NCBI RefSeq assembly: GCF_000215955.2
Contig: NZ_AFNV02000008.1
Location: forward strand, 1 to 64,000
Source: Salinisphaera shabanensis E1L3A
Lineage (GTDB): Bacteria; Pseudomonadota; Gammaproteobacteria; Nevskiales; Salinisphaeraceae
Direction: 5' to 3'
DNA: 64,000 nucleotides
Shown: positions 38,245 through 63,789 of the stretch, in pieces
Position numbering within the stretch: position 1 is the stretch's first letter
Layout: every line of letters starts with the position of its first letter
Notes under the pieces: generated by a model
The model's database searches: none
What the model was told of the DNA's origin: nothing
Seen by the model: only the letters and a program-made list of their open reading frames with translations
Made by a program: the position numbers and the translations under genes

Positions 38245-38560
38245 CGTGATAACCCCCGAGTAAATACATTGATGTATGCAACATCTCCTGCATGCAACGG
38301 GTGTGCCTAACTGGCTCAAGCGTTGGAATAATTCTTATATTTGCGCATACGTTAAATAAGATATTGATTTAATTATGTATATTAGCGTTTCGGCGTTCGT
38401 GCCTTATCCCGCACAGTGCCGAAAGAGGGCGCACTGGCGCTATTTGAAAGCTCGATTAACGTGCGGGGCTGTTGGAGTGCAACAGCTCAGAGCATTTTCC
38501 TGTTTGGCGTAGGCAGAAGCGGCGTCGGTCGAATTCACGCGCGATGGCGATGCGAACGAG
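38245..38560 (-). promoter_or_regulatory. Regulatory region upstream of the porin: shared motif, sigma-54 promoter and IHF-type site
   Basis: No gene is seen in these 316 bases. On the minus strand AGGCAC-ACCCG-TTGCA at 38293-38308 matches the sigma-54 consensus but for its first base. A motif reading TGATGTATGCAACA lies at about 38270-38283, on the expected transcription start. TAA-GATA-TTGATT at 38357-38369 matches the IHF consensus, within a very AT-rich stretch (38330-38395). A GCTGTTG/CAACAGC hairpin at 38468-38486 may end the amidohydrolase operon. Confidence 0.75.
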
Positions 38561-40000
38561 TTAACAGCAGCCCGATTGCTGATACCAGCCATGCACATGC
38601 GCTTCGATATCAGACCAGACCGCTTGCAACGGACGCCGATCGGTCCAGCGCCGTCGATATTGGTCGATCAGTTCGTCGTGGACGGCAGCGATATCGAGAT
38701 TGACCAGTGCCGCGTCGCACACGACCGGCTGTCCGCCCACCCAAAGCTGATCGATATGGGCCGCCGTGGTATGGCTGAACAGTGAGGCCGGAATCGGGTT
38801 GTCGACGAGATCGTAGCGTTGTAGTCGCGCCAGATCGAGCACCAGCCAGTCAGCTGGTTGACCGGCCGCCAGCCGACCATCGCCGGGCGCGCCGATGCAG
38901 ACCCTGCCATGACTGGTCGCGCAGGCGAGCATGTCGCGATGTCCGGCCCATGATTCGAAACCCCGGTCAGCGTGCACCAGGCGCGTTAGCCGCATTTCCC
39001 GAAGCGCGTCGTCGTCCTGATCGAGCGCCGAACCATCGAGGCCCAGGGCGACCCGACAACCGGTATCGAGCATGCGCCGTAGTGGCGCGATGCCTGAGCG
39101 CAGGTGCAGGTTGGAGCTGGTATTGACTGCGATAGTCGCGCCGGATTCGGCAATGCGTTCGAGTTCGTCGTCGCGCGCCCAAACACAGTGCGCCAGTGTC
39201 AGCCGTGGGCCGAGCAGCCCGATCTCAGCCAGATGTTGGACGATGCCGTTCGGATACTGTCGGTCGGCCCACTCGCGTTGATAGCGGGTTTCGAGCAAGT
39301 GCATATGTACACGCCGCCCGGTATCGGCGCTCGCCTGCGCGATCGCGGCGAGGAGTGCATCCGAACACCATTGCACGCCGGTCGGCCCGTATTGTACGTC
39401 GAGGTCGCGGTCGGTCACCGCTTCGGCACAGGCATCGACGCTTTCCAGCATCGCGTCGATGGATTGATTCGGCACGTTGAAATATCGGTCGGCTACGGGG
39501 CGGGTTTCAGCATCCATTGCGGCGCGAATCGTTGCGTCGTCGCCGTAAACCAGCGGGTTGCGATCGCGCAGGCCTACTGCAAAAGCCGCGCGAATGCCGA
39601 CGGTGTCTGCGGCGCGGGCAACTGCGGCCACTTCGGTGGGCAGATCGTTTAGCCCTTGCGCCCGCGTGCAGTGCATCATCACCGCGCCTGATCCGCCGAG
39701 TGCGGCCCGGCCGAAACTGGCACAGGCCGCGATATATGGATCGACCGAGGGTGCCACGGCCAGGCGCAACAACCAGGTTTCCAGCGGCTTGTCGACGGCG
39801 CCGAACGCCACCGTGGGTAGCGGTCGGCCGTGATCGTGGGCGTTGGCGAAACAGGGCATGACCAGCCGCCGCGGCCCGGCAGGTCTGGCGCCGAGCGGTT
39901 CGATGGCGGTGATTCGCCCATCATCATGCGTTATACGCACCGGCCCACGGCTATCGCAGCCGGCGCCGAGGAGCGCGTCGTGGGCAATGAATTCGCTCAT
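38561..40000 (-). CDS. Amidohydrolase family protein (deaminase-type, TRZ/ATZ-like)
   Basis: 479-aa metal-dependent hydrolase of the cytosine deaminase/TRZ-ATZ group; expected to deaminate a nitrogen heterocycle. Metal ligands: NAHDHGRP near residue 56, HMHLLETRYQREW near 232 and LAHCVWARDD near 268. The catalytic Asp is in VALGLDGSALDQDDD near 319. The exact substrate cannot be read. Last gene of an eight-gene minus-strand operon with an ABC importer, a cyclic amidase and an isochorismatase-fold amidase. That makes a ring deaminase feeding a hydrolytic route plausible. Confidence 0.87.
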   Translation of the reverse strand: MSEFIAHDALLGAGCDSRGPVRITHDDGRITAIEPLGARPAGPRRLVMPCFANAHDHGRPLPTVAFGAVDKPLETWLLRLAVAPSVDPYIAACASFGRAALGGSGAVMMHCTRAQGLNDLPTEVAAVARAADTVGIRAAFAVGLRDRNPLVYGDDATIRAAMDAETRPVADRYFNVPNQSIDAMLESVDACAEAVTDRDLDVQYGPTGVQWCSDALLAAIAQASADTGRRVHMHLLETRYQREWADRQYPNGIVQHLAEIGLLGPRLTLAHCVWARDDELERIAESGATIAVNTSSNLHLRSGIAPLRRMLDTGCRVALGLDGSALDQDDDALREMRLTRLVHADRGFESWAGHRDMLACATSHGRVCIGAPGDGRLAAGQPADWLVLDLARLQRYDLVDNPIPASLFSHTTAAHIDQLWVGGQPVVCDAALVNLDIAAVHDELIDQYRRRWTDRRPLQAVWSDIEAHVHGWYQQSGCC

Positions 40001-40012
40001 GTTCGTGCTTGC

Positions 40013-41041
40013 CTACGGCAGGCGCTGATCACGCGGCGGCAAAAACCGATCGGTAAACACCGTTTCGGCGAGCGGTTTGCTTTCGAGATCGTAAAGATCG
40101 GCAATGGTGTCGATGGACCTCGACAAACGCTGCGTGCTGACATCGCCGATGCCAATTTCGCGGCTTTCGTCGGAGACGATCAGATGCGTCATTGCATAGT
40201 CGAGACGCTTGCGCTCGGCATCGGCATCGATAAACGCTTCGCGTTGCTTGACTGCGGCAATGCCGGCGTCCGGGTCTTGGATGATGTCCTGCATGGCATG
40301 GTTGATCGCTTTGACGAGCCCTTCGACTGCCTCGGGGTGATCGGCAATCATCGCCTGCGACACCATCACGCCGTTCGAGTAGATATCAAGGCCGTGATCG
40401 CCGTAGGCAAACCAGCGGTAATCGGCTTGCGGGTCGCGACCCTGCGAAACCAGGTTCATATAGCTGGTGACATTGAACACCAGTGCGGCGTCTACATCGC
40501 CGCGATTGAGCAACTGTTCCTGAAGCTGCGGCGCAACGTTGGTGATGCTGACCGAATCGGGGTTGATGTCGGAGGCTTCGAGCATTGCAGGAAACAGCTT
40601 GGTAGCGGCACTGCCGGCCGGGCCGCCGAATGTGTGGCCGGGAAAATCCGCTACCGATTCGGTCGGCCCGTCGGCGGTGGTCAGCACCGCAAACGGCGGC
40701 TGGTTGTAGATCTGGTAGACCATGACCGGCGCCCGGTCGGGCGATTTGGCCGCGGTCTGGATGATGGCATTCATATCGCCGAAGCCGGCATCGTAGGCGC
40801 CGGAGAGCACGCGGCTCACCGTCGCCGCTGAGCCTTCGCCCTGATCGATGGTCACATCCAGGCCCTGGTCCGCGAAGTACCCGCGCTGCTGGGCGAGATA
40901 GAACGGCGCATGCACGCCCTGGATCTTCCAATCCAGGGTGAACCGGACCGCTACGGTTTCAGCCGCGGCATTCGTGGCCGAAAAGAGCAATGTGCCCAGT
41001 ATCAGGGTGCGTGTGAGCGTTCGAAAAAGTAGGTCAATCAT
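40013..41041 (-). CDS. NMT1/THI5-like ABC transporter substrate-binding protein
   Basis: 342-aa periplasmic binding protein. A signal peptide (LILGTLLFSATNAAAE) precedes VRFTLDWKIQGVHAPFYLAQQ and GYFADQGLDVTIDQGEGSA, the hallmark of NMT1/THI5-like proteins that bind pyrimidines, riboflavin or sulfonates. The ligand site residues are not resolvable by eye. Gene lies just downstream of the permease and ATPase genes of the same transporter. A second, similar binding protein is encoded at 45070-46128 in the same operon. Confidence 0.9.
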   Translation of the reverse strand: MIDLLFRTLTRTLILGTLLFSATNAAAETVAVRFTLDWKIQGVHAPFYLAQQRGYFADQGLDVTIDQGEGSAATVSRVLSGAYDAGFGDMNAIIQTAAKSPDRAPVMVYQIYNQPPFAVLTTADGPTESVADFPGHTFGGPAGSAATKLFPAMLEASDINPDSVSITNVAPQLQEQLLNRGDVDAALVFNVTSYMNLVSQGRDPQADYRWFAYGDHGLDIYSNGVMVSQAMIADHPEAVEGLVKAINHAMQDIIQDPDAGIAAVKQREAFIDADAERKRLDYAMTHLIVSDESREIGIGDVSTQRLSRSIDTIADLYDLESKPLAETVFTDRFLPPRDQRLP

Positions 41042-41064
41042 GGTCGGTTCCCATTAAGCGAAAA

Positions 41065-41853
41065 TCAGGCCAGTGGTGTGTCGGCGCCGCGCGATGCCCA
41101 GCCGCAGACACGGCGCTCGAGCAGCGAGAACAGGCCGTAGAGCACAACGCCCATCACGGCGAGCAGGAACAGGCCTGCGAACACCAGCGGCACGTCGAAA
41201 TTGGATGTGGCGATCATCATCACGTTGCCGATGCCACGATTGGCGGCCACCGTTTCCGAGAGCACGGTGCCCACGAAGGCGAGCGTGATAGCAACCTTGA
41301 GTGCGGCAAACAGATAAGGCATCGCACTCGGCAGGCTGATGTTGAATAGAATCTCGCGCCGGCTTGCACCGAGCGCCTTGAGCACGTCCTGTTGTTCCGG
41401 CGACGTGGTAGCCAGTCCGGTGGCTACATTGACCACGATCGGAAAGATACAAATGACATAAGAGGTCAGAATCGCCGGCACTGTGCCACTGCCGAACCAC
41501 AGTACGAAGATCGGCACCACGGCGACCTTCGGGATCGAGGAAAACCCGACCAGCAACGGGTAGGCCGTGTCGTAGGCGATTTTGGACGAGCCTACGAGCG
41601 CGCCGAGCACGATGCCGGTGAATACGCCCGCCGCAAAGCCGATCATCGTGGTCATAAGCGTCTGCACGATATGCGGCACGAGGGCAGGAAAACGTTCGAT
41701 GAGCGTCATTAGAACCGCACTCGGGCGGGGCAGCACGAACGGCGAGATCGAAAAGACCACGCAGGCCGCTTCCCACAGCAAGAAGAAGCCGACGATGAAC
41801 GCGATAGAGGCGGCGCGCTGCATCGCGCGCGGGCCGAGCAGGCGCTGTGTCAT
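41065..41853 (-). CDS. ABC transporter permease (SsuC/TauC/ThiX-like)
   Basis: 262-aa inner-membrane protein with about six helices. The start at 41853 (MTQRLLGPRAM) overlaps the ATPase stop by ATGA. Family elements: FVLPRPSAVLMTLIERF near 39, GFSSIPKVAVVPIFVLWFG near 105 and the EAA-type coupling loop LKALGASRREILFNISLP near 162-180. Works with the ATPase upstream and one or both binding proteins. Confidence 0.92.
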   Translation of the reverse strand: MTQRLLGPRAMQRAASIAFIVGFFLLWEAACVVFSISPFVLPRPSAVLMTLIERFPALVPHIVQTLMTTMIGFAAGVFTGIVLGALVGSSKIAYDTAYPLLVGFSSIPKVAVVPIFVLWFGSGTVPAILTSYVICIFPIVVNVATGLATTSPEQQDVLKALGASRREILFNISLPSAMPYLFAALKVAITLAFVGTVLSETVAANRGIGNVMMIATSNFDVPLVFAGLFLLAVMGVVLYGLFSLLERRVCGWASRGADTPLA

Positions 41854-42698
41854 GACGCCGCACTCCCGACCGTATTCGGGCCGTCGTGGGTGATCAGGGC
41901 GCGCAGATCCTGCATGAGCTTTATGAAGTCGTTGTCGTAGGTCCGCGCAACGGTACGTGGCCGTTGGAAATCGACCGCACGGTCTTCGACGATGCGCCCT
42001 GGGCGCGGGCTCATGATGCATACCCGCGAGGCCAGATAGGCCGCTTCGCGCAGATCGTGAGTAACCAGCAGTACGGTCGGCTTCTTGTCCAGCCAAAGGT
42101 CCTGGAGAATGCCCCAGAGTTCCTCACGGGTGAATTGATCGAGCGCGCCGAACGGCTCGTCGAGCAGCAATACGCGCGGTTCGTGAATCAATGCCCGGCA
42201 CAGCGAGGCGCGTTGGAGCATGCCTCCCGATAGCTGCCAGGGATATTTGTCGCCGAAACCGTCGAGCCCGACCTGGGCGAGCAGGGCATCGGCACGCTCG
42301 CGGTACTCGGTCGCCTTCTTGGACCGGTAACCGGCCTTGAACGGCGACACGATCTTGAGCGGCAGCATGATGTTGTCACGCACGCTCAGCCAGGGAAGCA
42401 TGGTCGCATTCTGAAAGGCGATGCCCACGCGCGCGGCTCGTGCCGATATCTCGCGTCCGCCGACGAATACATAGCCTTCGGAGGCCGGCAACAGGCCGGC
42501 GGCAAGCTTGAGAATGGTCGATTTGCCACAGCCCGAGGGGCCGACGAGCGCAACGAATTCGCCGTCGCGCAGGACCAGCGAAGTGGTATCCAATGCGCGC
42601 GTTGCGGTCTCGCCGCGACCGTAGGTGACCGCTGTGTCTTCAAGCACGATAGCGGCATCGTCGAAGCGCCCCATCGGTGTGTTCTGAGCCGTGTTCAT
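41850..42698 (-). CDS. ABC transporter ATP-binding protein (SsuB/TauB-like)
   Basis: 282-aa importer ATPase. Walker A VGPSGCGKSTILKLAAG near 54, signature LSGGMLQRASLCRAL near 156 and Walker B PRVLLLDEPFGALD near 174, switch His in VTHDLREA. Q-loop is in AFQNATMLPW. Start overlaps the stop of the cyclic amidase gene (ATGA). Belongs with the permease and the binding proteins in one operon. Confidence 0.93.
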   Translation of the reverse strand: MNTAQNTPMGRFDDAAIVLEDTAVTYGRGETATRALDTTSLVLRDGEFVALVGPSGCGKSTILKLAAGLLPASEGYVFVGGREISARAARVGIAFQNATMLPWLSVRDNIMLPLKIVSPFKAGYRSKKATEYRERADALLAQVGLDGFGDKYPWQLSGGMLQRASLCRALIHEPRVLLLDEPFGALDQFTREELWGILQDLWLDKKPTVLLVTHDLREAAYLASRVCIMSPRPGRIVEDRAVDFQRPRTVARTYDNDFIKLMQDLRALITHDGPNTVGSAAS

Positions 42699-44137
42699 GA
42701 CTTCTCCGGCGTTTTGGCGATTTCAGCGGCCAGCGTGCGATCCGCGTTTTGGATATTGGCTTTCGACATGTTTTGTATGCGTTTGACGTTGCGCCCGTGA
42801 CCGCGCGCCTCGGCCACCAGGCGGCGTTTGCGCATGACGAATCGGCCGCCGACGAGCGTATGGACCGGCACACCGGTCACGGCTACGTCATGAAACGGCG
42901 AAATACGCGCGTTGACCGAATGCAGCTGATTCTGGTCTATGGTCTCGGTGCGGTTCATATCCACCAGTGCAATATCGGCATCGGCGCCTACGCCGATACG
43001 CCCCTTGGCTGGATACAGCCCCCAGGCCTTGGCTGGAGCGACCGACGAGATACGTACGTAATCGCACAGCGACAACCGCCCGGCATTGACCGAATCCAGC
43101 ATCAGAGGCATCTGGGTTTCCACGCCCGGAAAACCGCAGTCGGCATCCCAGATCACGTCGTTGTGTTTTTCCTTGGGCAGATGCGGCGCATGATCAGTGG
43201 CGATCATGTCGAGCGTGCCGTCGGCCAGGCCGGCCCACAGCGCGGCGGCATCTGCGGGCTCGCGCACCGGCGGATTGACGCGGATCACGCTGCCCAGACG
43301 GTCGTAGTCTTCGGTGGAAAGACGCAGATAGTGCGGGCAGGTTTCGGCGGTGATATCCACGCCGCGCGCCTTGGCCTCGGCCATCGGCCGCAGCTCCGCA
43401 GCCGACGACACATGCAATACGTGAATTCGTGCGCCCGTCCATTCCGACAGGATCGCCGCGCGGGCAACGGCTTCGACAGCGACCACCGACGGGCGGGCGG
43501 CCACATGAGCGAGCGGGTCGTGACGCCCGGCTGCGCGCAGGCGCTCGTAGCGCCAAGCCATGATCGAAGCGGTTTCGGCATGCAACGAAGTGCGCAGGCC
43601 CAGCGGTGCGATACGTTCGAAGGCTTCCAGCATCGCACCCGTCGAAGGCGAGGGCAGATTGCCGAAGGTATTGCCCATGAAGCACTTGTAGCCGATCACC
43701 CCGGCCGCGGCCAAGGCTTCGAGCTGGTCCACATTGTTTTCCGCGAGCAGCCCGTAAACGCCAAAATCGACATAGGCATTGGCCTCGGCGCGTTCGAGCT
43801 TGTCAGCCACTGCATCCGCGGTCGCGGTGGGCGGGTGTGTGTTGGGCATTTCGAAGACCGTAGTCGTGCCGCCCATTGCAGCCGCGGCCGTACCGGTTTC
43901 CCAGGTTTCCTTGTAGTCGTAGCCTGGGTCGCGAAAATGCACGTGGACATCGATCGCCCCGGGCAACAGATGCAGGCCGGTCGCGTCGAAGCGTTCGTGG
44001 GCGCTGGGCATGGTGGCATCGGCCCCGACAGCCACGATCACGCCGTCGTCGACTGCCACGCTGGCAGGGAACTGGTGCGTGTCGGTGACCACGGTCGCGC
44101 CGTGGATCACGAGGTCGACGGTTTGTTGTTCGGTCAT
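42695..44137 (-). CDS. Cyclic amidase of the allantoinase/dihydropyrimidinase/dihydroorotase group
   Basis: 480-aa binuclear metal amidohydrolase that opens a cyclic ureide or imide. Metal motif GAIDVHVHFRDPGYDYKE near 58-75; the carbamylated Lys is in VIGYKCFMGN near 150. His ligands follow in SLHAETAS and HVLHVSS, and the catalytic Asp in ATDHAPH near 313. MGGTTTVFEMPNTHPP is as in allantoinases, but dihydropyrimidinases and hydantoinases are close. The neighbouring isochorismatase-fold amidase could remove the carbamoyl group released by ring opening. A C-terminal tail of about 40 residues is unusual and basic. Confidence 0.88.
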   Translation of the reverse strand: MTEQQTVDLVIHGATVVTDTHQFPASVAVDDGVIVAVGADATMPSAHERFDATGLHLLPGAIDVHVHFRDPGYDYKETWETGTAAAAMGGTTTVFEMPNTHPPTATADAVADKLERAEANAYVDFGVYGLLAENNVDQLEALAAAGVIGYKCFMGNTFGNLPSPSTGAMLEAFERIAPLGLRTSLHAETASIMAWRYERLRAAGRHDPLAHVAARPSVVAVEAVARAAILSEWTGARIHVLHVSSAAELRPMAEAKARGVDITAETCPHYLRLSTEDYDRLGSVIRVNPPVREPADAAALWAGLADGTLDMIATDHAPHLPKEKHNDVIWDADCGFPGVETQMPLMLDSVNAGRLSLCDYVRISSVAPAKAWGLYPAKGRIGVGADADIALVDMNRTETIDQNQLHSVNARISPFHDVAVTGVPVHTLVGGRFVMRKRRLVAEARGHGRNVKRIQNMSKANIQNADRTLAAEIAKTPEKS

Positions 44138-44149
44138 GGTCGGTAACTC

Positions 44150-44944
44150 CTAGACTGCGGCCCAGCCGCCGTCGACCGGCAGGTCCACGCCGGTGATCTG
44201 GCGCGCCCGGGCGCTGGCAAGAAACAGGCAGGCGTGCGCTACATCCGCACTGGTCGATACGCGTTGCAGGGCATAGTCGGCGGCATGGCGAGCGGCCGCC
44301 TGTTCAAGGCTGATGCCTTCGCGCGCGGCGATATCGGCACAGACCTTGTCGCGAAAACGCGGTCCGTCGACCATGCCGGGGGCGACCGTGTTCACGTTGA
44401 TGTTGTAGGCGCCCAGTTCTAGCGCAAAGCTCTTGGTGATACCGCGCAGGCCCCATTTAGACGCTGAATAACCCAGCCGCCCGGCACGGCCGCGCATGCC
44501 GAATGTGCCGCCCACATTGACGATGCGTCCCGCTTTTTGCTCGATCATGCCGGGTGCCACGGCATGAATGGTGTTGAAACAGCCGGTCATGTTGAGGTCG
44601 ACGATGTCGCGGAATTCTGCGGCGGTGGTGTCGGCGCCGGTCTTGCCGATCGGCCCCGAGCCGCCAGCGATATTGACGAGCACATCGATGGCCTTGCCGT
44701 AGTGTTGCGTTGCGGCCTGGATCGCGGCCTCGCAGGCGTCGGCATCGGTAATATCGCAGGCGGCGACGAAAACGGTGCGCCCATCGCTGCGTAGATCCTC
44801 GGCCAAAGCCTCGATGGGCGCGGTATCGCGGCCCAGCAGTACGAGCCGCGCGCCTTCGGCGGCGAACGCACGGGTGATGACCTCGCCCATGCCCTTTGCA
44901 GGACCGGTCAGGGCGACGATCTGGTTATCGAGTTCGAGATTCAT
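44150..44944 (-). CDS. SDR family oxidoreductase
   Basis: 264-aa NAD(P)-dependent dehydrogenase. Cofactor motif ALTGPAKGMGE near 12-22 (TGxxxGxG), VNIAGG near 88 and catalytic Tyr-Lys in GYSASKWGL near 158. It could reduce a ring double bond or oxidise an alcohol of the substrate; the reaction is not known. Part of the minus-strand catabolic operon, 12 bases before the cyclic amidase gene. Confidence 0.9.
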   Translation of the reverse strand: MNLELDNQIVALTGPAKGMGEVITRAFAAEGARLVLLGRDTAPIEALAEDLRSDGRTVFVAACDITDADACEAAIQAATQHYGKAIDVLVNIAGGSGPIGKTGADTTAAEFRDIVDLNMTGCFNTIHAVAPGMIEQKAGRIVNVGGTFGMRGRAGRLGYSASKWGLRGITKSFALELGAYNINVNTVAPGMVDGPRFRDKVCADIAAREGISLEQAAARHAADYALQRVSTSADVAHACLFLASARARQITGVDLPVDGGWAAV

Positions 44945-45069
44945 GAGTCGTTTCTTGTATTGGGGCGGGGGTCAAGACAGGCGTGCTGCGCGCCGCTCGG
45001 CGTAGGGCCGAGCGGGCGCAGGGGTGTCGCGATGAAATCGGCGCGCCGCGGGCGACGCGAAGGAGGGAT

Positions 45070-46128: not shown

Positions 46129-46150
46129 GAATAAATCCTCGAAAAGGGGG

Positions 46151-46921: not shown

Positions 46922-47131
46922 GACATGAGCCATCTGTGAGCGATGGGCACAGCCTCGCAAAGGTGAGCGTCGACGACTATTGCTTTATTTCTGCTAGCGT
47001 GTTGCAGAAAAGTCAACGCTATGGATGTGGCCGAGCTGCGTTGGGTAACAATGCATTGCCACGGCGCATGAGCTCGGCGAGTCGGGCTGTAAAGCGCCAT
47101 TTTCGATGTAGTTACTTACCAAGAGCGTCCC

Positions 47132-48033
47132 ATGAAGCATTTTCGTTATTTTCGTTATATGGACGCTGTCGTACGCGCCGGCTCGATCCGGCGCGCTGCC
47201 GAGCAGCTCTATATCACGCCCTCCGCGCTGGACCGGCGGATTCACGATCTCGAAAAAGAGCTCGGCACACCATTGTTCGAGCGCCACGCCCGGGGCATGC
47301 GGCTGCTCGCCGCTGGCGAGATATTTCTGGGCTATGTGCGCCGTCATCTGGCCGATCTGGACCGTATGCATCCGAGATTGAAAGTCTTAAAGGCCTAAAA
47401 CGGGGTCATGTCGAAATTGTTGCGAGTCAGGCCGTGGCAGGTGGTTTTCTCCCCCATCAGGTACGCGCATTTCAACAAGACCACCCGGGGGTGTCCTTCA
47501 ACGTGCGTATCACCGACCGCGGCGAAGCCATGCGCGCGCTTACCGCGTTTGAAGCCGATCTGGCGCTTGTGATTTCGCCGCTGCGCACGGCCGAGCTTCT
47601 GCCGCTGGTCGTGATCGCCCAACCCGTGATGGCGATGATGGATGCCGAGCACCCGCTGGCCGATCGTGCATCACTGCGTTTGGGCGATTGTCTGAGCTAT
47701 CCGCTCGTTTTGCCGCGCGCCACGCTCGCCACGCGGGCACTCATTGATAACGTGCTCGATACGCGCTCGGTGCCGGTGACCGTCGCCGCTGAAACCGACT
47801 CCTTCGAATTGATGCGCGGCCTGCTCGCTCATACCCGCAACATCGGCTTCCAGGTGGCCATCGGCGCGCCTGACACCCAGGTCGATCCACGCCTGGTTGC
47901 CCGCCCCATCGACGAACGCGATATCTCGGCCGCACCCATGGTCTGTGCCCAGCTCAAAGGCCGCAGCCTATCGGTCGCCGCGGCTCGGTTTGCGAATCAA
48001 GTGGTGGGGGCGTTGGATGCGATGAAGCGGTGA
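47132..48033 (+). pseudogene. LysR family regulator with a one-base deletion near 47369
   Basis: LysR-type activator divergent from the catabolic operon. From ATG 47132 the first frame gives a full winged helix (MDAVVRAGSIRRAAEQLYIT, then ALDRRIHDLEKELGTPLFERHARGM) and runs into a stop at 47396-47398. The expected linker and effector domain continue in another frame from about 47369 (SEIESLKGLKRGHVEIVASQ to the stop at 48031-48033). Restoring one base in ATGCATCC, for example ATGGCATCC, rejoins the two as RMASEIESLKGL. Joined length is about 301 aa, normal for LysR. Real inactivation or an indel error. Confidence 0.88.
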
Positions 48034-48827: not shown

Positions 48828-49153
48828 GGAGCGTCAGCCAGGAAATGGTGGGCGGCAGTATGCGTTGCGTATTGGCTCACCGCCAATGCGCGGGGATGGT
48901 GCGCTTGCCCGGTTATGATGCACGCAACGATGCGTCTCGATGGTGCTTCGAACAGAAAGCGCCCCGCCCCCGCTGTGTGCAGCACCTTGAGTAATCGTGC
49001 GAACCCAACCAGTGCCATGCCATGACGCTGTTTTGACTTGGGTGCGTTGTATGCAACGGGGCGATATTGGCACGCTCGATGCATCGTCTCTCTTATCGAA
49101 TCGCGGCCGCCGCTCGGCGCGGCTCGCTCTATCGCTGTTTCAAGAGAGGCCTC
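48828..49153 (+). promoter_or_regulatory. Promoter region of the BMP importer operon: shared motif and sigma-54 promoter
   Basis: No gene is seen in these 326 bases. TTGGCAC-GCTCG-ATGCA at 49067-49083 matches the sigma-54 consensus except one base of the -12 box, with GG and GC ten bases apart. CGTTGTATGCAACG at 49045-49058 lies just upstream. The same 14-mer (15 bases with the following G) recurs at 62949-62962 ahead of the AtzD-like gene. Confidence 0.75.
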
Positions 49154-50284: not shown

Positions 50285-50302
50285 TCGCGATTGCCGTACA
50301 CG

Positions 50303-50341: not shown

Positions 50342-50363
50342 ATCTATTGCAGGTTTCTAGTCG

Positions 50364-51422: not shown

Positions 51423-51423
51423 T

Positions 51424-53903: not shown

Positions 53904-53912
53904 AAGATATCT

Positions 53913-54922: not shown

Positions 54923-54968
54923 TCCAACCCAATGAATATGCCGGCGGTGGCCGGCCCGGAGTAGACAC

Positions 54969-55961: not shown

Positions 55962-56019
55962 GTTTGATGACGCGCCGCTCGAAAACAGCCGGTACGAAAC
56001 CATCGGCTGAGCCCACCCG

Positions 56020-56670: not shown

Positions 56671-56839
56671 GGGGCGTGTTGAAGCAGGATGATAAATAGA
56701 TGTCAGCCTCCAGTTGACGCGGTGTTGCCGGCAGCAGAGATCGTCAGCTGCTTTGGTGCCGGATTAATAATCCATCGGTCGGGCGGGCATGGTGGCGACG
56801 ATCCCCAGCATAACTGCCCTGTAGCTGCTGGCGCCCAGC

Positions 56840-56855
56840 TGGCACAGCCGTTGCA
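56840..56855 (+). promoter_or_regulatory. Sigma-54 promoter of the NMT1-type lipoprotein genes
   Basis: TGGCAC-AGCCG-TTGCA is a perfect match to the sigma-54 core consensus TGGCAC-N5-TTGCA. The expected start point is near 56867, about 36 bases before the TTG start at 56903. Confidence 0.88.
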
Positions 56856-56866
56856 TTAGGTGTCGC

Positions 56867-56880
56867 CATGTATACAACGT
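56867..56880. promoter_or_regulatory. Copy of the shared GTTGTATRCA motif
   Basis: CATGTATACAACGT, which reads CGTTGTATACATG on the other strand. It begins at the predicted transcription start of the sigma-54 promoter at 56840-56855. Related motifs occur at 38271, 49045, 62949 and 63189. Confidence 0.55.
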
Positions 56881-56902
56881 TGCGCATTGGCAGGGCTCTA
56901 CA

Positions 56903-58021
56903 TTGATCACTCGCAATAACTCTGGTCCGTTTTCGGTCATCATGTGCGGTCACAGCCTGGCAACTGCACTGTGTCTGTGCGTGCTCATATTGGTCGGGTG
57001 TGGCCCATCTTCTGATGAGGCCACAGCTGATACGAGCCCCTCAGCTGGCACGAACGCGGCAGAACATGCCGATCAAGCTTCCAGTGGCGTGGCATCGAAG
57101 AAAATCCGCCTCACCACGAATTGGTATGCGCAGGCCGAACACGGCGGTTTCTACCAAGCGGTCGCCGCCGGTATTTATGCCGATCATGGCCTTGATGTCT
57201 CGATCGACATGGGCGGGCCGCAGGTCAACAACCTGCAGCTCCTGCTCGCTGGCAAAACCGATTTCGTGGTGGGGTTCGGTATCCGGGCGATCAATTCGCT
57301 CAACGAGGATCTGCCGGTGGTTACGGTCGCCGCTTATTTTCAGAAAGACCCGCAGGCGATTCTGGCCCATCCCGACATCGAGTCGTTGGCCGATCTCAAG
57401 GGCAAACCGATTGCGGTGGCGGCCAGTGCCGATACGACGTATTGGCCTTGGCTGGAAGAAAAATACGGGTTTACGGGCGGTCAGAAACAGCCCTACCAGT
57501 TTAGCGTCGCGCCTTTCATCGCCAATCCCGATCTATCGCAGCAAGGCTATGTGACCTCCGAGCCTTATGCGGTCCAGCAGGCAGCGGATTTCGAGCCAGA
57601 AATTTTCTTGTTCGCAGATTACGGCTATCCCGCTTACTCCACCACCATCACGACCACGCGCGACATGGTCGAGAATCACCCGGATGTGGTGCAACGCTTC
57701 GTGGCGGCTTCGATTGAAGGCTGGCAATCGTTTCTCGATGACCCAGCACAGGCCAAGAAACTGATTCAGGAAGAAAATGCTGATATGGGCGACGGCCAAT
57801 TCGACTTTGGCGTCGACAAGATCAGGGAATACGAGCTAGTCACCGGGGGTGACGCCGTCGAACAGGGCATCGGGATCATGACCGACGCACGCTGGCAACA
57901 GACGTTCAACTTCATGCGCGAAGCCGGCATGGTCGACGCCGACGTCGATTACAAGAAGGCCTACACGCTGAAGTTCGTGCAGCAGGCACACGCCGATGCC
58001 AATCCGGACGCCCCGCAATAA
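56903..58021 (+). CDS. NMT1/THI5-like substrate-binding lipoprotein (tandem copy 1)
   Basis: 372-aa lipoprotein. Lipobox LILVGCG near residues 28-34. The mature protein has IRLTTNWYAQAEHGGFYQAV, GLDVSIDMGGPQVNNLQLLLAGK, and NWPW-like TTYWPWLEEKYGFTG, as in riboflavin/pyrimidine-type NMT1 proteins. TTG 56903 is taken as start because it lies a suitable distance after the sigma-54 promoter; ATG 56942 is the alternative. No permease or ATPase gene follows, so it may use the importer encoded at 40-43 kb or one outside the window. Confidence 0.88.
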   Translation: MITRNNSGPFSVIMCGHSLATALCLCVLILVGCGPSSDEATADTSPSAGTNAAEHADQASSGVASKKIRLTTNWYAQAEHGGFYQAVAAGIYADHGLDVSIDMGGPQVNNLQLLLAGKTDFVVGFGIRAINSLNEDLPVVTVAAYFQKDPQAILAHPDIESLADLKGKPIAVAASADTTYWPWLEEKYGFTGGQKQPYQFSVAPFIANPDLSQQGYVTSEPYAVQQAADFEPEIFLFADYGYPAYSTTITTTRDMVENHPDVVQRFVAASIEGWQSFLDDPAQAKKLIQEENADMGDGQFDFGVDKIREYELVTGGDAVEQGIGIMTDARWQQTFNFMREAGMVDADVDYKKAYTLKFVQQAHADANPDAPQ

Positions 58022-58061
58022 AACCGTCCATGAAAACGGGCCCACAGGGATTCATAGCGAC

Positions 58062-59171
58062 ATGCAGAACACTTCACCCATGAAAACTAAATCCGCTGCC
58101 TTTTCGAATCGATGCGTCCTGCGTCTTATCGTCATGGCGCTGCTGCTGACGTTGCTGGCCGGTTGCGGCGAGTCGTCAGATACCCAATCGGACGATCGCA
58201 ATGCCAACTCGTCGCAAAGTGCGTCGGCCGAAAAAGACAAACCACTCGACAAGGTAACCTTCACCACCAGCTGGTATGCCCAGGCCGAGCACGGCGGCTA
58301 CTACCAGGCCGTTGCCGACGGGACTTACGAAAAATACGGGTTGGACGTGACGGTCGATATGGGTGGGCCGCAGGTCAACAATCTGCAGCTGCTGCTCGCG
58401 GGGAAGGCCGATTTCATCATGGGCTATGGCGTGCGCGCGCTGAAGTCCGCCGGCGATGGTCTGCCAGCGGTCGTCGTCGGCGCCATCTTTCAGAAGGATC
58501 CGCAGGCGTTGCTCGCGCATCCGGATATCAAGACCTTGGCTGATCTCAAGGGCCATCCCATTGCGGTGTCGTCCTATGCGGATACGACGTTCTGGCCATG
58601 GCTACAGTCGAAATACGGCTATACCGGCGATCAGAAACAACCATATTCGTTTAGCGTGGCCCCGTTCATCAACAACCCGGAGCTGGCCCAGCAGGCTTAT
58701 GTCACATCCGAGCCGTTCGCCGTGCAACAGCAGGCCGATTTTGAGCCGACCATTCTCTTGTTTGCCGACAACGGTTATCCGCCCTACGGCAACACGATTA
58801 CCACCACCCGCGAAATGGTCGAAGAAAACCCGGATGTCGTGCAGCGTTTCGTGACCGCCACGATCGTGGGCTGGCAGCACTATTTGGATGATCCGACCGA
58901 GGGCAACAAGCACATCCAGCAGGCCAATGCCGATATGAGCGACGAACAGATTGCCTTCGGTATCGACAAGATGAAGGAATACGGTCTTATTACCGGCGGC
59001 GACACGGGCAATCCCGGCATCGGCACGATGACTGACGAGCGCTGGAAACAGACCTTCGATTTCATGACCAACGTGGGCATGGTGCCCGCCGATACCGATT
59101 ACAAACAGGTCTACACGCTCGATTTCGTCAACAAGGCACAAGAGATGCTCGGCAACGACGAGCCCGACTGA
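58062..59171 (+). CDS. NMT1/THI5-like substrate-binding lipoprotein (tandem copy 2)
   Basis: 369-aa lipoprotein, clearly a duplicate of the preceding gene: FTTSWYAQAEHGGYYQAV, VDMGGPQVNNLQLLLAGKAD and the C-terminal half align along the whole length. Lipobox LLLTLLAGCG near 24-33. ATG 58062 is favoured; 58080 is possible. The two copies have diverged most in the signal and linker. It is followed by a strong stem-loop at 59179-59207. Confidence 0.9.
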   Translation: MQNTSPMKTKSAAFSNRCVLRLIVMALLLTLLAGCGESSDTQSDDRNANSSQSASAEKDKPLDKVTFTTSWYAQAEHGGYYQAVADGTYEKYGLDVTVDMGGPQVNNLQLLLAGKADFIMGYGVRALKSAGDGLPAVVVGAIFQKDPQALLAHPDIKTLADLKGHPIAVSSYADTTFWPWLQSKYGYTGDQKQPYSFSVAPFINNPELAQQAYVTSEPFAVQQQADFEPTILLFADNGYPPYGNTITTTREMVEENPDVVQRFVTATIVGWQHYLDDPTEGNKHIQQANADMSDEQIAFGIDKMKEYGLITGGDTGNPGIGTMTDERWKQTFDFMTNVGMVPADTDYKQVYTLDFVNKAQEMLGNDEPD

Positions 59172-59178
59172 AGCATGA

Positions 59179-59207
59179 GGCCGGCGCGCGGCACACCCGC
59201 GCCGGCC
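59179..59207 (+). repeat. Stable stem-loop after the second lipoprotein gene
   Basis: GGCCGGCGCG and CGCGCCGGCC form a perfect 10-bp stem with a 9-base loop, starting 7 bases after the stop codon. No T tract follows, so it may protect the upstream mRNA or act as a Rho-assisted end. Confidence 0.65.
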
Positions 59208-59293
59208 CGCGTCGCGAAGCGCAGATTCCGGCTTCGCGCAAAAACCCATCGCGTCCGGCACAGCGCGTATCCAAGCTCAAGAGGACCATCGAG

Positions 59294-60319
59294 ATGCTTG
59301 TGACTCAACAACCGGTATTGCGCCGTTTCTGGTATCCCGTCATGCCGCTCGGCGAACTCGACGACGGCCCGAAACCCTTCACGCTGCTCGGCGAAAATAT
59401 TGTGCTCTGGAAGAACACGTCCGACGAGCCGGTCGCGCTGGCCGATCGCTGCTGCCATCGCCATGCCCAGCTGTCCCGGGGCTGGGTCGATGGCGACCAG
59501 ATCGTATGCGGCTACCATGGCTGGTGTTACGACGCGACCGGCGCCTGCGTGAAGATTCCGCAAACGCCTGACCGGCCGGCCCGTGGCAAGGTCGCGGCCT
59601 ACCACTGCCAGGCCCGCTACGACTATGCCTGGGTCTGTCTAGACGAACCGCTCTTCGACATCCCTGAGTTCGAAGAGGCCGAACGCGAAGGCTATCGCAT
59701 GTTCCACGAGTTCTACGAACCCTGGTCTTGTGCCGGGCTGCGCATCATGGAGAACTCGTTCGACAACGCACATTTTTCTTTCGTGCACCAGAACACGTTC
59801 GGCAAGGCCGAGGACCCGGTGCCGGCCAAGCTGGCCATCGACGAGGTCGTCGACGGTTTCCATATGCACGCCATCGCGCCGGTCAAGAACCCGGAAGCAC
59901 AAAAGAAGGCGCTGAACATGGACAGCGACGAAACCGAGCGCGATATGCGCAGCCGCTGGTACCTGCCGTTCGGCCGCAAGCTCCAGATCACGTATCCCAA
60001 CGGGGTGGTGCACGCCATCGTGACCTGGGCGACGCCAATCGACGATGCCACCTCGCAGATCTGTCAGTTCGTCTATCGCAGCGACAGCGAAGCCGACTCG
60101 CCGGCTGCCGGGATCATCGCCTTCGATCGTGAAGTCACCGGCGAGGACAAGTTCATCCTCGAGTCGACCAACTACGATGTACCCCTCGACACCGCCAGCG
60201 GTGAGGAGCTGCATATGCCCTCGGACAAGCCAGGGCTGGTCATGCGCCAGCAGCTCAAACGTCTGCTGGAGGCGCACGGCGAACCGGAAGCTCGGCTTAG
60301 GTCGTCTGCCGTTGCCTGA
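59294..60319 (+). CDS. Rieske non-heme iron oxygenase (HpxD-like candidate)
   Basis: 341-aa oxygenase alpha subunit. Rieske [2Fe-2S] ligands C53-x-H55 and C72-x2-H75 (DRCCHRH and CGYHGW). Mononuclear iron motif ENSFDNAHFSFVH with Asp157, His160 and His165. Relatives include phthalate/vanillate-type oxygenases, methylxanthine N-demethylases, and HpxD, which hydroxylates purines in Klebsiella. The setting, directly before 8-oxoguanine deaminase and near uricase, favours a purine hydroxylase or demethylase. AGGACC precedes ATG 59294. No matching reductase gene is seen. Confidence 0.9.
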   Translation: MLVTQQPVLRRFWYPVMPLGELDDGPKPFTLLGENIVLWKNTSDEPVALADRCCHRHAQLSRGWVDGDQIVCGYHGWCYDATGACVKIPQTPDRPARGKVAAYHCQARYDYAWVCLDEPLFDIPEFEEAEREGYRMFHEFYEPWSCAGLRIMENSFDNAHFSFVHQNTFGKAEDPVPAKLAIDEVVDGFHMHAIAPVKNPEAQKKALNMDSDETERDMRSRWYLPFGRKLQITYPNGVVHAIVTWATPIDDATSQICQFVYRSDSEADSPAAGIIAFDREVTGEDKFILESTNYDVPLDTASGEELHMPSDKPGLVMRQQLKRLLEAHGEPEARLRSSAVA

Positions 60320-60340
60320 GTTGCCACGCTAGACCCAAGC

Positions 60341-60381
60341 GCCGGCCGTCGTCGTTCGTTGCTGCGAGCGGCGGCCGTTTT
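60341..60381 (+). terminator. Possible terminator after the Rieske gene
   Basis: CGGCCG at 60343-60348 can pair with CGGCCG at 60372-60377, with partial pairing inside, and TTTT follows. The stem is imperfect and the loop large, so this is weak. Confidence 0.35.
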
Positions 60382-60431
60382 GCGTCATTTCATTATCGCA
60401 TCGCCTGCGCGGTGCGCATTCAAGGAAAGTC

Positions 60432-61781
60432 ATGTCGATCTGGATCAAGAATCCGTTATCCATTCTGGCCGAGAACGCAGGCGGCGGTATCGTTGTCGAT
60501 GGCGCGCGTATAGTCGAACTCGTACCCAGCGGCCAGACGCCGCAGGCTCATGTAGACAGTGTCTACGACGCCGGTGAACACGTTGTGATTCCCGGAATGA
60601 TTAATACCCATCACCATTTCTTCCAAACGCTCACACGGGCCTTTCCGCCGGCGCTGAACAAGGAGCTCTATCCGTGGCTGGGCTCGCTGTTCCCTTTCTG
60701 GAAGCACTTGACGCCGGAAATGATGCGTCTGGCTGTACGGGTCGCCATGGCCGAACTGTTGCTATCGGGTTGTACGACGGTGATGGATCATCACTACCTC
60801 TATCCGAAGGGGCTGGATGACAAGGCCGTGGATATCGAGGCCGAGGAAGCTCGTGCACTGGGTTTACGCGCAGTGCTCACGCGCGGCTCGATGGATCAGG
60901 CCGGTCGCCCAGGTGATGTGCAACCCGAAAGCGTGGTCCAACCGACTGAACATATCCTGCTCGAGTCCGAGCGGATACTGAACACCTATCACGAGACCGG
61001 CGACGGCGCGATGCTGCAGATCGCGCTCGCCCCCTGCACGCTGCTGTCCTGTACCCAGGAACTTATGCGTGAAAGCGCGCGCCTGGCCCGCCGCCACGGT
61101 GCGCTATTGCATACCCATATGGCCGAGACCACCGGCGAGGTCGATTACTGCGTCGAGCACTACGGCTGCCGCTCGGCCGACTATATGGAAGACGTCGAAT
61201 GGTTGGCCAACGACGTCTGGCTGGGCCACGGCATCCATTTCGACGATCACGAAATAGCCAAGCTGGGTAAGGCAGGTGTGGGCATTGCCCATTGTCCGAG
61301 TTCGAACATGATTCTGGCGTCGGGCACCTGTCGCGCCACCGACCTGGAGCGCGCTGGCTGCTCGATCGGCCTCGGCGTGGACGGCTCTGCCTCGAACGAT
61401 TGCTCGAACCTGATGCAGGAGGTGCGTCAGGCGTTTTTCCTGCAACGTCTGGCCACCGACGCTCAGACCGTGACCCATGCCGATGCCCTACGCTGGGCCA
61501 CGCTCGGCTCGGCGAAATGCCTGGGTCGTGCCAATGACCTGGGTTCGATCGAAGTCGGCAAACAGGCCGACCTGGCCCTGTTCAAGCTCGACGAACTGCG
61601 TTTCTCCGGCCACGGCGATCCGCTGGCCGCGATCGTGCTGTGCGGTGCACACCGTGCGGATCGCGTGATGGTGGCGGGGCGTTGGGTGGTAGAAGACGGC
61701 GCGATTCCGGGTATGGATATCGGCCATCTCATCCACGACCACACTGCGGCGGCCAAGGTGTTACAGACAGCCATCGCATAA
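60432..61781 (+). CDS. 8-oxoguanine deaminase
   Basis: 449-aa amidohydrolase that converts 8-oxoguanine to urate and ammonia. Metal motif INTHHHFFQTLTRAFPPAL near 58 with the family's following PWLGSLFPFWKHL. HTHMAETTGEVDYC near 226, GHGIHFDDHE near 262 and LGVDGSASNDCSN near 316 complete the active site. AAGGAA precedes the ATG. It sits between an HpxD-like Rieske gene and uricase genes, so its product urate would be used at once. Confidence 0.9.
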   Translation: MSIWIKNPLSILAENAGGGIVVDGARIVELVPSGQTPQAHVDSVYDAGEHVVIPGMINTHHHFFQTLTRAFPPALNKELYPWLGSLFPFWKHLTPEMMRLAVRVAMAELLLSGCTTVMDHHYLYPKGLDDKAVDIEAEEARALGLRAVLTRGSMDQAGRPGDVQPESVVQPTEHILLESERILNTYHETGDGAMLQIALAPCTLLSCTQELMRESARLARRHGALLHTHMAETTGEVDYCVEHYGCRSADYMEDVEWLANDVWLGHGIHFDDHEIAKLGKAGVGIAHCPSSNMILASGTCRATDLERAGCSIGLGVDGSASNDCSNLMQEVRQAFFLQRLATDAQTVTHADALRWATLGSAKCLGRANDLGSIEVGKQADLALFKLDELRFSGHGDPLAAIVLCGAHRADRVMVAGRWVVEDGAIPGMDIGHLIHDHTAAAKVLQTAIA

Positions 61782-61823
61782 CGCTCGCCGCGGACGCTGC
61801 ATGCAGCCTCGGCTTGCCGAGGT

Positions 61824-62903
61824 CTAGCCGCGCGAGAGGATGGCCGCGATGACCCCGCCGCCGCTCGGGCCCTGATGCTCGGCGCCACCGGAGACATACA
61901 CCGTCGGGTCGCCGGCCAGGGCCGCAATCACACCGCCCACCACTGCGCGTGCGTGACGGGTGTGATTGATATCCGAGTCGTTGATCATCGTATGCCGGCG
62001 ACCGCGGATTTCGCCCGATGGGTCGGCTTCGGCTTTTGCGAACAGCTGAACGACGCGATCCCCGGGCGCATCGGCGGCCAGTGCCTGTCGTACCGCCTCG
62101 GCATCGATTGCGTCCTGCATGACCGCATGGCGGGCATACAGATCGCCGCTCGCGGAAAGCGTGTTGCCAATGACGATTACCTCGCAATAGTCGAGTTCGC
62201 TGCCGGCCGAGGCAGAAGCCACCGCGCTGAAGCAGTTCATGTCCTCGAGGACGGTTTCGTCCTGCGCCCGTTCGGCTTCGATCTCGCCGAGCGCGACTGC
62301 CACGCCGAGCGCACTGGCGCCGCGAGAATAGCCCATCGATTTGTAGGTATCCGTGGTTGCCACTGCGTGACCGGTCGTCTGGGCTTCACGGATTTTCTGG
62401 CTGGTTAGCAACGGGCATTTGACCTGCACGTAGTGCACATCATCGGGGTCGTCGATACCCGCCTGCTGCAGCGCCTGCGCCGTGGCAGTGGCCACGGCCT
62501 GGATCTGGGCACGTCGGCCGATGTCGTGTGCTGCCAGCTCGGGCGTTCGTGCGACGCCGACGGCGAGTGCCTGGGTGTCCACGGCGCTGGGTTGCGCACT
62601 CCGCTCGCGGCAAATGACGGTGAGGTGTGGGCTGATAACCCCTTCGGTACCGCCGGACATAACCATTGCGATGCGTCGCGCTGCATCGCTGCCGATATGC
62701 GATGCAAACAGATTCTGCAGGCGCTCCGTGGCATAGCCGCGGGTGAAATCGTTGACGCAGCCGTTGCCTTCGGTTTTGCCGAACACCGCGACAACGGTCG
62801 CGGGATCGAGGGCGTTGGATTCGATGAGTTGAACCAGGCCGCGGGTGTCAGCGGGAGAATCGGTCGCTATACGGTGGACAGTGGTCCGGGTTGATGTCGT
62901 CAT
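61824..62903 (-). CDS. Ring-opening amidohydrolase, AtzD/barbiturase family
   Basis: 359-aa enzyme of the cyanuric acid hydrolase/barbiturase ('Toblerone' fold) family, which opens barbiturate or cyanuric acid rings. All three Ser-Lys repeats are visible: Lys43 in FGKTEGNGCVND with SGGTEGV near 83; Lys162 in VQVKCPLL with GYSRGASALGVA near 191; Lys290 in LFAKAEADPSG with SGGAEHQGPSGGG near 338. ATG 62903 has GGAG upstream. Length is as in AtzD. Whether it acts on barbiturate, cyanuric acid or an oxidised purine product is open; a sigma-54-type site and the shared 14-mer lie upstream. Confidence 0.92.
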   Translation of the reverse strand: MTTSTRTTVHRIATDSPADTRGLVQLIESNALDPATVVAVFGKTEGNGCVNDFTRGYATERLQNLFASHIGSDAARRIAMVMSGGTEGVISPHLTVICRERSAQPSAVDTQALAVGVARTPELAAHDIGRRAQIQAVATATAQALQQAGIDDPDDVHYVQVKCPLLTSQKIREAQTTGHAVATTDTYKSMGYSRGASALGVAVALGEIEAERAQDETVLEDMNCFSAVASASAGSELDYCEVIVIGNTLSASGDLYARHAVMQDAIDAEAVRQALAADAPGDRVVQLFAKAEADPSGEIRGRRHTMINDSDINHTRHARAVVGGVIAALAGDPTVYVSGGAEHQGPSGGGVIAAILSRG

Positions 62904-62948
62904 GGCGTGAATAACTCCAGAGTCATTTAAATGGGCGAGCACGGAGGT

Positions 62949-62962
62949 CGTTGTATGCAACG
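62949..62962. promoter_or_regulatory. Shared 14-mer motif ahead of the AtzD-like gene
   Basis: CGTTGTATGCAACG, identical to the copy at 49045-49058 ahead of the BMP importer. It has 5-base inverted arms (CGTTG/CAACG), as expected for a dimeric regulator such as a GntR-type protein. It lies 46-59 bases before the start codon. Confidence 0.6.
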
Positions 62963-63155
62963 GCTAGGCCACCATAGTAGAAGCGACCTCGCAGACGTGC
63001 GCTGTATGGCGGCGGCCACAACCAGTGCGCCATGTTCGAGCAGAGGGAGGGTCAATTGCCCGTATCGAGTGCAACGATCTATCGTCTAAGCATTTCGTTG
63101 GTGCGCCCGGGCTCGTCTGTTGCCTATAGCTGCCGGACCCATGGCGTGGCATGAG

Positions 63156-63171
63156 TGGCACAGAAGATGCT
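63156..63171 (+). promoter_or_regulatory. Sigma-54-type promoter of the OHCU decarboxylase/uricase genes
   Basis: TGGCAC-AGAAG-ATGCT: perfect -24 box, one mismatch in -12, ten bases between GG and GC. Predicted start near 63182, about 90 bases before the GTG start. Confidence 0.65.
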
Positions 63172-63181
63172 ACGAGCCTGA

Positions 63182-63201
63182 GATGCAATGTTGTATGCAT
63201 C
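63182..63201. promoter_or_regulatory. Inverted repeat with the shared motif at the uraD promoter start
   Basis: GATGCA-ATGTTGTA-TGCATC, containing GTTGTATGCA as in the other copies. It starts at the predicted transcription start of the sigma-54-type promoter at 63156-63171. Confidence 0.55.
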
Positions 63202-63270
63202 TAGGGTAGTCACATTGGCTCTCATATATACCGGCAGCTTCGTTCGCCTGCGATTGAAAGGTCAGCCTCG

Positions 63271-63789
63271 GTGAGGTGGACACTCGACCGGTTGAACCGA
63301 TTAGGGGCATCCGAATTCGAGGCTGCCCTTGGCGATATCTACGAAAACTCGCCGTGGGTCGCCCACGCAGGCGCCGAGGCGCGGCCTTTCAGCACGTTGT
63401 CCGCACTGCATGCGGCCTTGGCCGCACAGGTTGATGGAGCTGACGAGGCTGCACGACTGGCCTTGATTCGTGCGCATCCGTCATTGAACGCCGGGGCGTT
63501 TCGGGCAGCCCCGCTGAGCGCGGACTCGGGGCGTGAGCAAGCCGGCGCTGGCCTCGACTCGCTGGACGATCACCAGGCCGAGGTCTTGGCCCGGCTCAAC
63601 CAGGCGTACGAAGATAAGTTCGATATGCCATTCGTCATGGCGGTGAAAGGCCATGGCGCGACTTCGATCGTGGCCCATATTGAAGCGCGCCTGAACCACA
63701 CGTTCGCACAGGAAAAAGCCGCCGCTGTGGCTGAAATTCACCGTATCGCGTACTTGCGTCTGTGCGACAGGATAGAGGATTCACTTTGA
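63271..63789 (+). CDS. uraD: 2-oxo-4-hydroxy-4-carboxy-5-ureidoimidazoline (OHCU) decarboxylase
   Basis: 172-aa enzyme converting OHCU to S-allantoin, the last step of urate oxidation. The catalytic His is in LIRAHPSLN near residue 70. The C-terminal half has the family pattern NQAYEDKFDMPFVMAVKGH near 110-128 and EARLNHTFAQEKAAAVAEIHRIA near 137. GTG start with AAAGG about 10 bases before. Its TGA overlaps the TTG start of the uricase gene (TTGA), so the two are coupled. Confidence 0.9.
   Translation: MRWTLDRLNRLGASEFEAALGDIYENSPWVAHAGAEARPFSTLSALHAALAAQVDGADEAARLALIRAHPSLNAGAFRAAPLSADSGREQAGAGLDSLDDHQAEVLARLNQAYEDKFDMPFVMAVKGHGATSIVAHIEARLNHTFAQEKAAAVAEIHRIAYLRLCDRIEDSL

Follow-up and report, generated by a model that had tools for sequence, protein, structure and literature searches.

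According to the available part of PMC6834077, the operons atzDGEHF and atzRSTUVW of Pseudomonas sp. ADP both have sigma-54 promoters and are induced by nitrogen starvation, and AtzR with cyanuric acid represses atzRSTUVW. This is the closest described system to the one predicted here for Salinisphaera shabanensis E1L3A, in which sigma-54-type -24/-12 promoter elements are paired with a palindromic, operator-like dyad; the analysis started from the first 64,000 nucleotides (nt) of contig NZ_AFNV02000008.1 (hereafter the window) and was extended to the whole genome. The two systems share AtzD, AtzH, allophanate hydrolase, and an AtzT-like BMP importer, as well as sigma-54 promoters and a local regulator that acts, or in Salinisphaera is predicted to act, on a sigma-54 promoter. 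Whereas Pseudomonas sp. ADP has the LysR-type AtzR and two plasmid operons, Salinisphaera has at least 11 promoters on three contigs with one dyad, a putative MarR (or GntR) regulator, an amidase under the AtzE cut-off (182.7 vs 425.75), and a biuret amidohydrolase, and its one set of sites also covers urate/8-oxoguanine genes. The predicted set differs from the ADP regulon in regulator family, dispersal, and an added urate branch.

Two other described systems resemble parts of the Salinisphaera set. The Klebsiella hpx system, with LysR and GntR regulators, has nitrogen-controlled purine breakdown, an AtzH-like HpxZ, an amidase, and relatives of the GGT-like HpxW; to our knowledge, no dyad shared by many dispersed promoters has been described there. 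PcaV and BpsR are MarR-family catabolic repressors and the best PDB sequence matches of our candidate MarR (PcaV, 4fht, 2.1e-15; 6pcp, 6.0e-10, which we take to be BpsR, its residue numbers fitting those in the BpsR paper), and we know of no overlap between their operators and sigma-54 promoters. In the available parts of the PMC literature, outside which most subscription journals lie, no MarR protein acting at such sigma-54 promoters was found, which is weak evidence of novelty.

We put at roughly 60% the probability that S. shabanensis has a dispersed regulon for taking up and degrading nitrogen-rich heterocycles, in which at least 11 predicted sigma-54 promoters, each with a 12-bp dyad, would be controlled by RpoN/NtrC and a MarR repressor.

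Pairing of the palindrome with sigma-54-type promoters

The original prediction placed sigma-54-type promoters at five transcription units of the window, each near a related motif. At all five, a sigma-54-like element was paired with a palindrome of the GTTGYATRCA(A/T)C type, and the coordinates held with a shift of one nucleotide at the BMP element, which starts at 49068 and not at 49067. The NMT1 element was confirmed as a full consensus and the AtzD element as weaker. A motif at the predicted start point was likewise found in three cases, porin, NMT1, and uraD. The palindromes (operators) are given below with their class, A or B, according to their 3' end.

38293..38308, minus strand, porin sigma-54-like -24/-12 element AGGCACACCCGTTGCA, sigma-54 score 15
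38271..38282, minus strand, porin operator GTTGCATACATC, class B, centre 18 nt 3' of the -12 GC
38287-38298, weaker second copy of the porin operator, on the -12 element
49046..49057, plus strand, BMP operator GTTGTATGCAAC, class A, centre 30 nt 5' of the -12 GC
49068..49083, plus strand, sigma-54-like element of the BMP importer operon TGGCACGCTCGATGCA, score 15
56840..56855, plus strand, NMT1 sigma-54 element TGGCACAGCCGTTGCA, full consensus
56867..56878, plus strand, NMT1 operator CATGTATACAAC (GTTGTATACATG on the minus strand), class B, centre 19 nt 3' of the -12 GC
62950..62961, minus strand, AtzD operator GTTGCATACAAC, class A, 2 nt from the -12 GC and overlapping the -12 element
62956..62971, minus strand, AtzD sigma-54-like element TGGCCTAGCCGTTGCA, weakest -24, three mismatches, score 15
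63156..63171, plus strand, uraD/uricase sigma-54-like element TGGCACAGAAGATGCT, score 15
63190..63201, plus strand, uraD operator GTTGTATGCATC, class B, centre 26 nt 3' of the -12 GC

When palindromes were scored on both strands of the window with up to two mismatches, there were 13 matches against 3.87 expected, and none of 100 shuffles reached 13; the places at 15224 and 28983 lay outside the promoter set. Sigma-54-like matches with up to three mismatches were not enriched in the window (114 vs 126.8 expected), and the signal therefore lies in the pairing. As an independent test, the palindrome alone was searched for across the 3.76-Mb genome and sigma-54 elements, for which the known consensus was used, were scored afterwards, a strong element being one with a score of at least 15 within 45 nt. 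The pattern fixed beforehand gave nine places, five of them beyond the original set, and four of these five had a strong element, scoring 15 or 16. A wider pattern, two of whose sites were already known from a matrix scan when it was chosen, gave 14 places, 11 of which had a strong element, against 1.0% (212/21,214) of positions in a background sample that contains the regulon itself. The places without a strong element (C20:37265, C29:5156, and C36:97684, the last within rpsB) were treated as chance yet retained in the counts, and seven one-mismatch palindrome places had no strong element (scores 9-13). The strict consensus TGGCAYRNNNNTTGCW occurred 14 times in the genome against twice for the reversed control, five times with the palindrome; the GG-N10-GC core was present in all 11 promoters and the full consensus in five. 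One further full-consensus match in the window (11210-11225, minus strand) had no operator, overlapped predicted open frames, and is probably due to chance.

The pairing as a whole might also be ascribed to chance or base composition, as the unenriched sigma-54-like matches of the window would allow, and the -12 TTGCA of three class A sites is part of both palindrome and promoter, so that there the two signals are not fully independent. However, the genome-wide counts, both outside the original set and overall, already contradict this explanation when set against the background, the paired arrangement is conserved in other species, and we consider it very improbable.

The genome-wide search extended the regulon, which had been proposed as sharing one operator among nitrogen-heterocycle genes, to other contigs, with six new members, three on C34, two on C37, and one on C11:

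C34:70811, 5' of biuret amidohydrolase and GGT, class B
C34:73432, 5' of an isochorismatase, class B
C34:83039, 5' of an NMT1 protein, variant TTTGCATGCAAC
C37:148977, 5' of an amidohydrolase and molybdo-hydroxylase subunits, class A
C37:151682, 5' of the amidase-AtzH-MarR set, class A
C11:6834, 5' of allophanate hydrolase, urea carboxylase, and an FCD-GntR gene, class B

The operator centres of the 11 promoters lay at -30, -29, 2, 2, 2, 6, 12, 13, 18, 19, and 26 nt from the -12 GC (3' positive), and no fixed spacing or helical phase was apparent among them. The absence of a constant distance suits a repressor that blocks the polymerase by steric exclusion, not an activator working at a fixed distance. 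Class A operators (ending in CAAC: BMP, AtzD, and the C37 pair), together with the C34:83039 variant, had centres at 2 nt or less, and those of class B (GTTGYATRCAT, ending in CAT: porin, NMT1, uraD, biuret amidohydrolase, isochorismatase, and C11) had centres 6-26 nt 3', a split by position that was noticed after the fact. The allophanate promoter had two adjoining TGTATRCA-type halves 12 nt apart in six Salinisphaera genomes (L210-L214, L019:6833-6856); the other sites of the regulon had a single operator copy, the porin perhaps two. A possible twelfth, weaker member near C37:139270 (L017:264-292) consisted of the sigma-54-like TGGTACACAAATTGCG with a half-palindrome just 5'; it preceded a family-5 solute-binding protein and permeases and was conserved in G000 and G013 (L081:5319-5347).

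A MarR protein as candidate regulator

The regulator was expected outside the window, and our main candidate is indeed encoded elsewhere in the genome.

C37:149275-149772, minus strand, MarR candidate (P0002), PF01047, 57.2 bits vs cut-off 24.6

The open frame of this gene was initially masked by an antisense frame, and the MarR fold of its product is clear from the sequence. The gene is the third on the same strand, directly after the amidase and AtzH genes, and thus stands behind one of the operators, TGGCATAGGCGTTGCATACAAC. The ligand residues Arg26 and His32 of BpsR align with R29 and H35 of the candidate MarR, and His23 of BpsR aligns with Phe26, according to the available part of PMC6837509; the target genes of the two proteins differ. 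A MarR orthologue (87-89% identity) was found only in G000, G003, and G013, three of the 14 genomes from the genus, and in no further one of the 85 from the order, and the palindrome was present as a predicted operator at the amidase-AtzH-MarR promoter in all three; the 89% identical MarR is carried by Salinisphaera orenii MK-B5 (NZ_AYKH01000017.1). The exact TTGTATRCAA lay within 45 nt of a sigma-54 element scoring at least 15 in the same three genus genomes: of the 22 genus loci retrieved with it, six had such an element, all in G000, G003, and G013, one more locus in G013 scored 14, and the other 15 scored 8-13. This co-occurrence suggests that the MarR protein is probably the main regulator of the sites.

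MarR homologues in other genomes

The 80 best of 294 homologue loci were compared, 79 of them besides S. orenii, with 45-65% identity. The scan selected for IRRLHQIH or SALFTKET, and how well R29, H32, and H35 are conserved in these loci is for that reason not counted as evidence. Frequent neighbours at the 80 loci were relatives of the amidohydrolase (54), the molybdo-hydroxylase subunits (52 and 48), AtzH (27), the amidase (23), and GGT (16). Beside the homologues the palindrome took the form GTGGYATRCC(A/T)C. There were 24 GTKGYATRCMAC sites, spread over 18 of the 79 loci; the 359 permuted palindromes averaged 1.3 sites and never reached 24, their maximum of 20 coming from two near-identical patterns. 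An exact sigma-54 consensus lay within 60 nt of 9 of the 24 GTKGYATRCMAC sites; for positions taken at random the figure was 81 of 20,000, and for the control palindromes 15 of 474 sites. With both site forms counted, sites were found in 25 of 79 loci, namely in 25 of the 41 closer homologues and in none of the 38 more distant ones, and at 16 homologue loci a site lay within 600 nt 5' of the MarR gene. Ten sites, from Pseudomonas, Marinobacter, Marinobacterium, Alloalcanivorax, Halopseudomonas, and Corticibacter loci, were fused to the promoter as TGGYATRCMACTTGCT, in which the -24 TGGCAT or TGGTAT is part of the palindrome itself and TTGCT stands at exactly the right spacing after it; L117, L131, and L133 were among the loci with the palindrome and no sigma-54 element.

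In the MarR loci, GTGGYATRCCTC (21) was as common as GTGGYATRCCAC (19), the next variant being found nine times, and this A/T alternation is the same as that separating the predicted site classes of Salinisphaera. Bridging GTTGTATGCCAC sites were found in L103, L111, and L116. In the recognition helix, Gly82 occurred in 1 of the 80 loci, the Salinisphaera one, and Ala in 72. Tentatively, and at somewhat less than even odds, these data may point to a MarR clade of gamma- and betaproteobacteria with its operator inside sigma-54 promoters, where the palindrome provides the -24 TGGCAT or the -12 TTGCA, forming a compact AND gate of nitrogen limitation and substrate for the use of heterocycles; in Salinisphaera, GTGGYATRCCAC would have been replaced by GTTGYATRCAAC as the operator while the recognition helix acquired Gly82, and the regulon would have spread over three contigs, joining cyanurate, biuret, and urate use.

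Other candidate regulators

A GntR-like regulator had originally been suggested as a possibility; that family was displaced by MarR as the best candidate, while an FCD-GntR protein was retained as a serious rival for at least the allophanate/urea-carboxylase operon.

C11:12307-13038, FCD-GntR gene of the allophanate hydrolase-urea carboxylase operon

This GntR might regulate all sites or those of class B, with MarR limited to class A or to none. Its own promoter pairs a sigma-54 element with a site containing TGTATACAT, 5' of allophanate hydrolase, in all six of the 14 genus genomes that have an orthologue (63-81%), although in G011 the left end of the site is CCTG in place of GTTG, and a second TGTATGCAG or CGTATGCAG half adjoins the site in all six. 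FCD-GntR operators are often TTGTATACAA-like. Three of the six genomes have no MarR orthologue yet have the site, so that this operon at least may answer to GntR, and the separation of classes A and B by position relative to the -12 GC would also agree with two regulators. On the other hand, that split was seen after the fact, the exact GTTGYATRCAAC was not found at strong sigma-54 elements in the three GntR-only genomes, and the A/T alternation also occurs in the MarR loci. A GntR homologue was present in the flanks of only 3 of the 80 MarR loci, where GTGGYATRCC(A/T)C sites nonetheless occur. Outside the genus, orthologues (E <= 1e-50) were found in 3 of 369 class genomes, only one of them new (G190, 50%), and the 17-kb surroundings of the G190 gene, with one sigma-54-like site and no operator at up to two mismatches, were uninformative. 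Regulation of all or the class B sites by this GntR is unlikely on balance, and MarR and GntR may recognise similar sites.

Other FCD-GntR genes were seen apart from these sites. One in the window (6141-6824, minus strand) shared 27% identity with the C11 GntR along most of the protein and was not linked to the sites. Sites of the form TTTTGTATACAAAA without sigma-54 elements in L034 and L037 (G008 and G013) lay a few hundred bases or less from FCD-GntR genes (G008:C57:48563 and G013:C1:347362) and are probably the operators of those genes.

The operator could also belong to another regulator, for example a further GntR, a LysR, or an IclR, with MarR and GntR as incidental neighbours. The genome has eight GntR-domain places, one of which is the MarR itself, below the cut-off, and several other regulators; the window contains a LysR gene:

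46936-48033, LysR gene

The co-occurrence of MarR with the sites, its autoregulatory placement, and the matching palindromes beside its homologues argue against such a regulator, which appears improbable.

Proposed nitrogen control and mechanism

RpoN is encoded at C40:55737 and NtrC on C39 (TIGR01818, 715.9 bits vs cut-off 558.6). The genome had 13 Sigma54_activat matches, one interrupted by a stop, and, beyond NtrC, at least nine further strong enhancer-binding domains. In a four-base inverted-word scan 5' of the 11 promoters, nothing was common to more than three. The activator at these promoters would most likely be NtrC. In the mechanism that we propose for a MarR-controlled regulon, the dyad GTTGYATRCA(A/T)C and its close variants would serve as the operator at each of the at least 11 dispersed promoters, where RpoN-polymerase and an enhancer-binding activator, presumably NtrC, would confer control by nitrogen limitation. 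A dimeric MarR repressor bound in or beside the promoter would block it until a pathway ligand releases MarR, and the MarR gene, standing behind its own operator, would be placed for autoregulation.

Several observations weigh against this interpretation. The other two genomes with MarR each had only one exact site (class A) at a strong sigma-54 element, and the MarR genomes are close relatives, so that 3/3 against 0/11 does not represent independent events. A very similar site was kept at the allophanate/urea-carboxylase promoter in G004, G008, and G011, all without a MarR orthologue. The exact Salinisphaera palindrome was almost absent near the MarR homologues, as L124 and L128 alone had exact copies, which lay 8.7-8.8 kb away from MarR and had no sigma-54 element, and the link to the homologues therefore requires a G-to-T change of the operator. 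Neither site form was found in 54 of the 79 homologue loci, including all 38 of the most distant. As for the activator, NtrC-like sites with at least 8/10 matches to the known consensus lay 5' of 7 of the 11 promoters, which 25.5% of random 300-nt stretches equal, and none of the 11 promoters reached 9/10, so that the sites are weak evidence for NtrC.

Gene content and pathway

The genes behind the five promoters of the window were as follows:

36838..38319, minus strand, OprD-family porin, open frame, true start near 38244; PF03573, 42.6 bits
49154..50284, plus strand, BMP/PnrA-like binding protein, PF02608
3' of the BMP gene, up to 56670, two permeases, ATPase, cupin, isochorismatase, formamidase, and FMN reductase
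56903..61781, plus strand, two NMT1 proteins, Rieske oxygenase, and 8-oxoguanine deaminase
61824..62960, minus strand, cyanuric acid amidohydrolase AtzD, open frame, true start 3' of the promoter
63271..63789, plus strand, OHCU decarboxylase (uraD), PF09349, heading the urate set

The nearest solved structure to the BMP binding protein was AtzT (6pi5, phmmer 2.1e-59). The formamidase of the same operon matched PRK13287 (548.9 vs cut-off 406), the 8-oxoguanine deaminase (60432-61781) PRK08203 (614.3 vs cut-off 532), and AtzD NF052395 (509.9 vs cut-off 360), with 6bum as its top PDB match (1.8e-117). The urate set (uraD, uricase, HIUase, and xanthine dehydrogenase; PF01014, PF00576, and TIGR03383, 204.0 vs cut-off 168.4) extends beyond the end of the window. 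Among the new members, biuret amidohydrolase scored 402.9 against a cut-off of 370 and allophanate hydrolase 842.8 against 511.

The genes atzD, atzE, atzH, and atzF did not form a single operon, with AtzD on C34, the amidase and AtzH on C37, and allophanate hydrolase on C11. AtzD, biuret amidohydrolase, allophanate hydrolase, uraD/uricase, and the AtzT-like importer nevertheless make a functionally coherent set. In the established pathway, cyanurate is followed by biuret and allophanate, and judged by gene content, AtzD, biuret amidohydrolase, and allophanate hydrolase together are a route from cyanurate to ammonia; the promoters also serve urate entry. An AllG-like oxamate carbamoyltransferase subunit (L017:3231-4505, minus strand) was encoded in the same direction as the C37 molybdo-hydroxylase genes and 3' of them, hinting at a pathway that ends in oxamate.

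Implications

The proposed regulon would supply a regulator, an operator, and a gene set open to direct test, and would account for the joint switching of dispersed genes by which cyanurate, biuret, allophanate, and urate are used. The promoters would offer a natural series of repressor operators at differing positions of sigma-54 promoters, and the GTGG and GTTG operator forms, with matching changes in the repressor, may serve as a model for a shift of specificity that keeps an overlapping promoter element.

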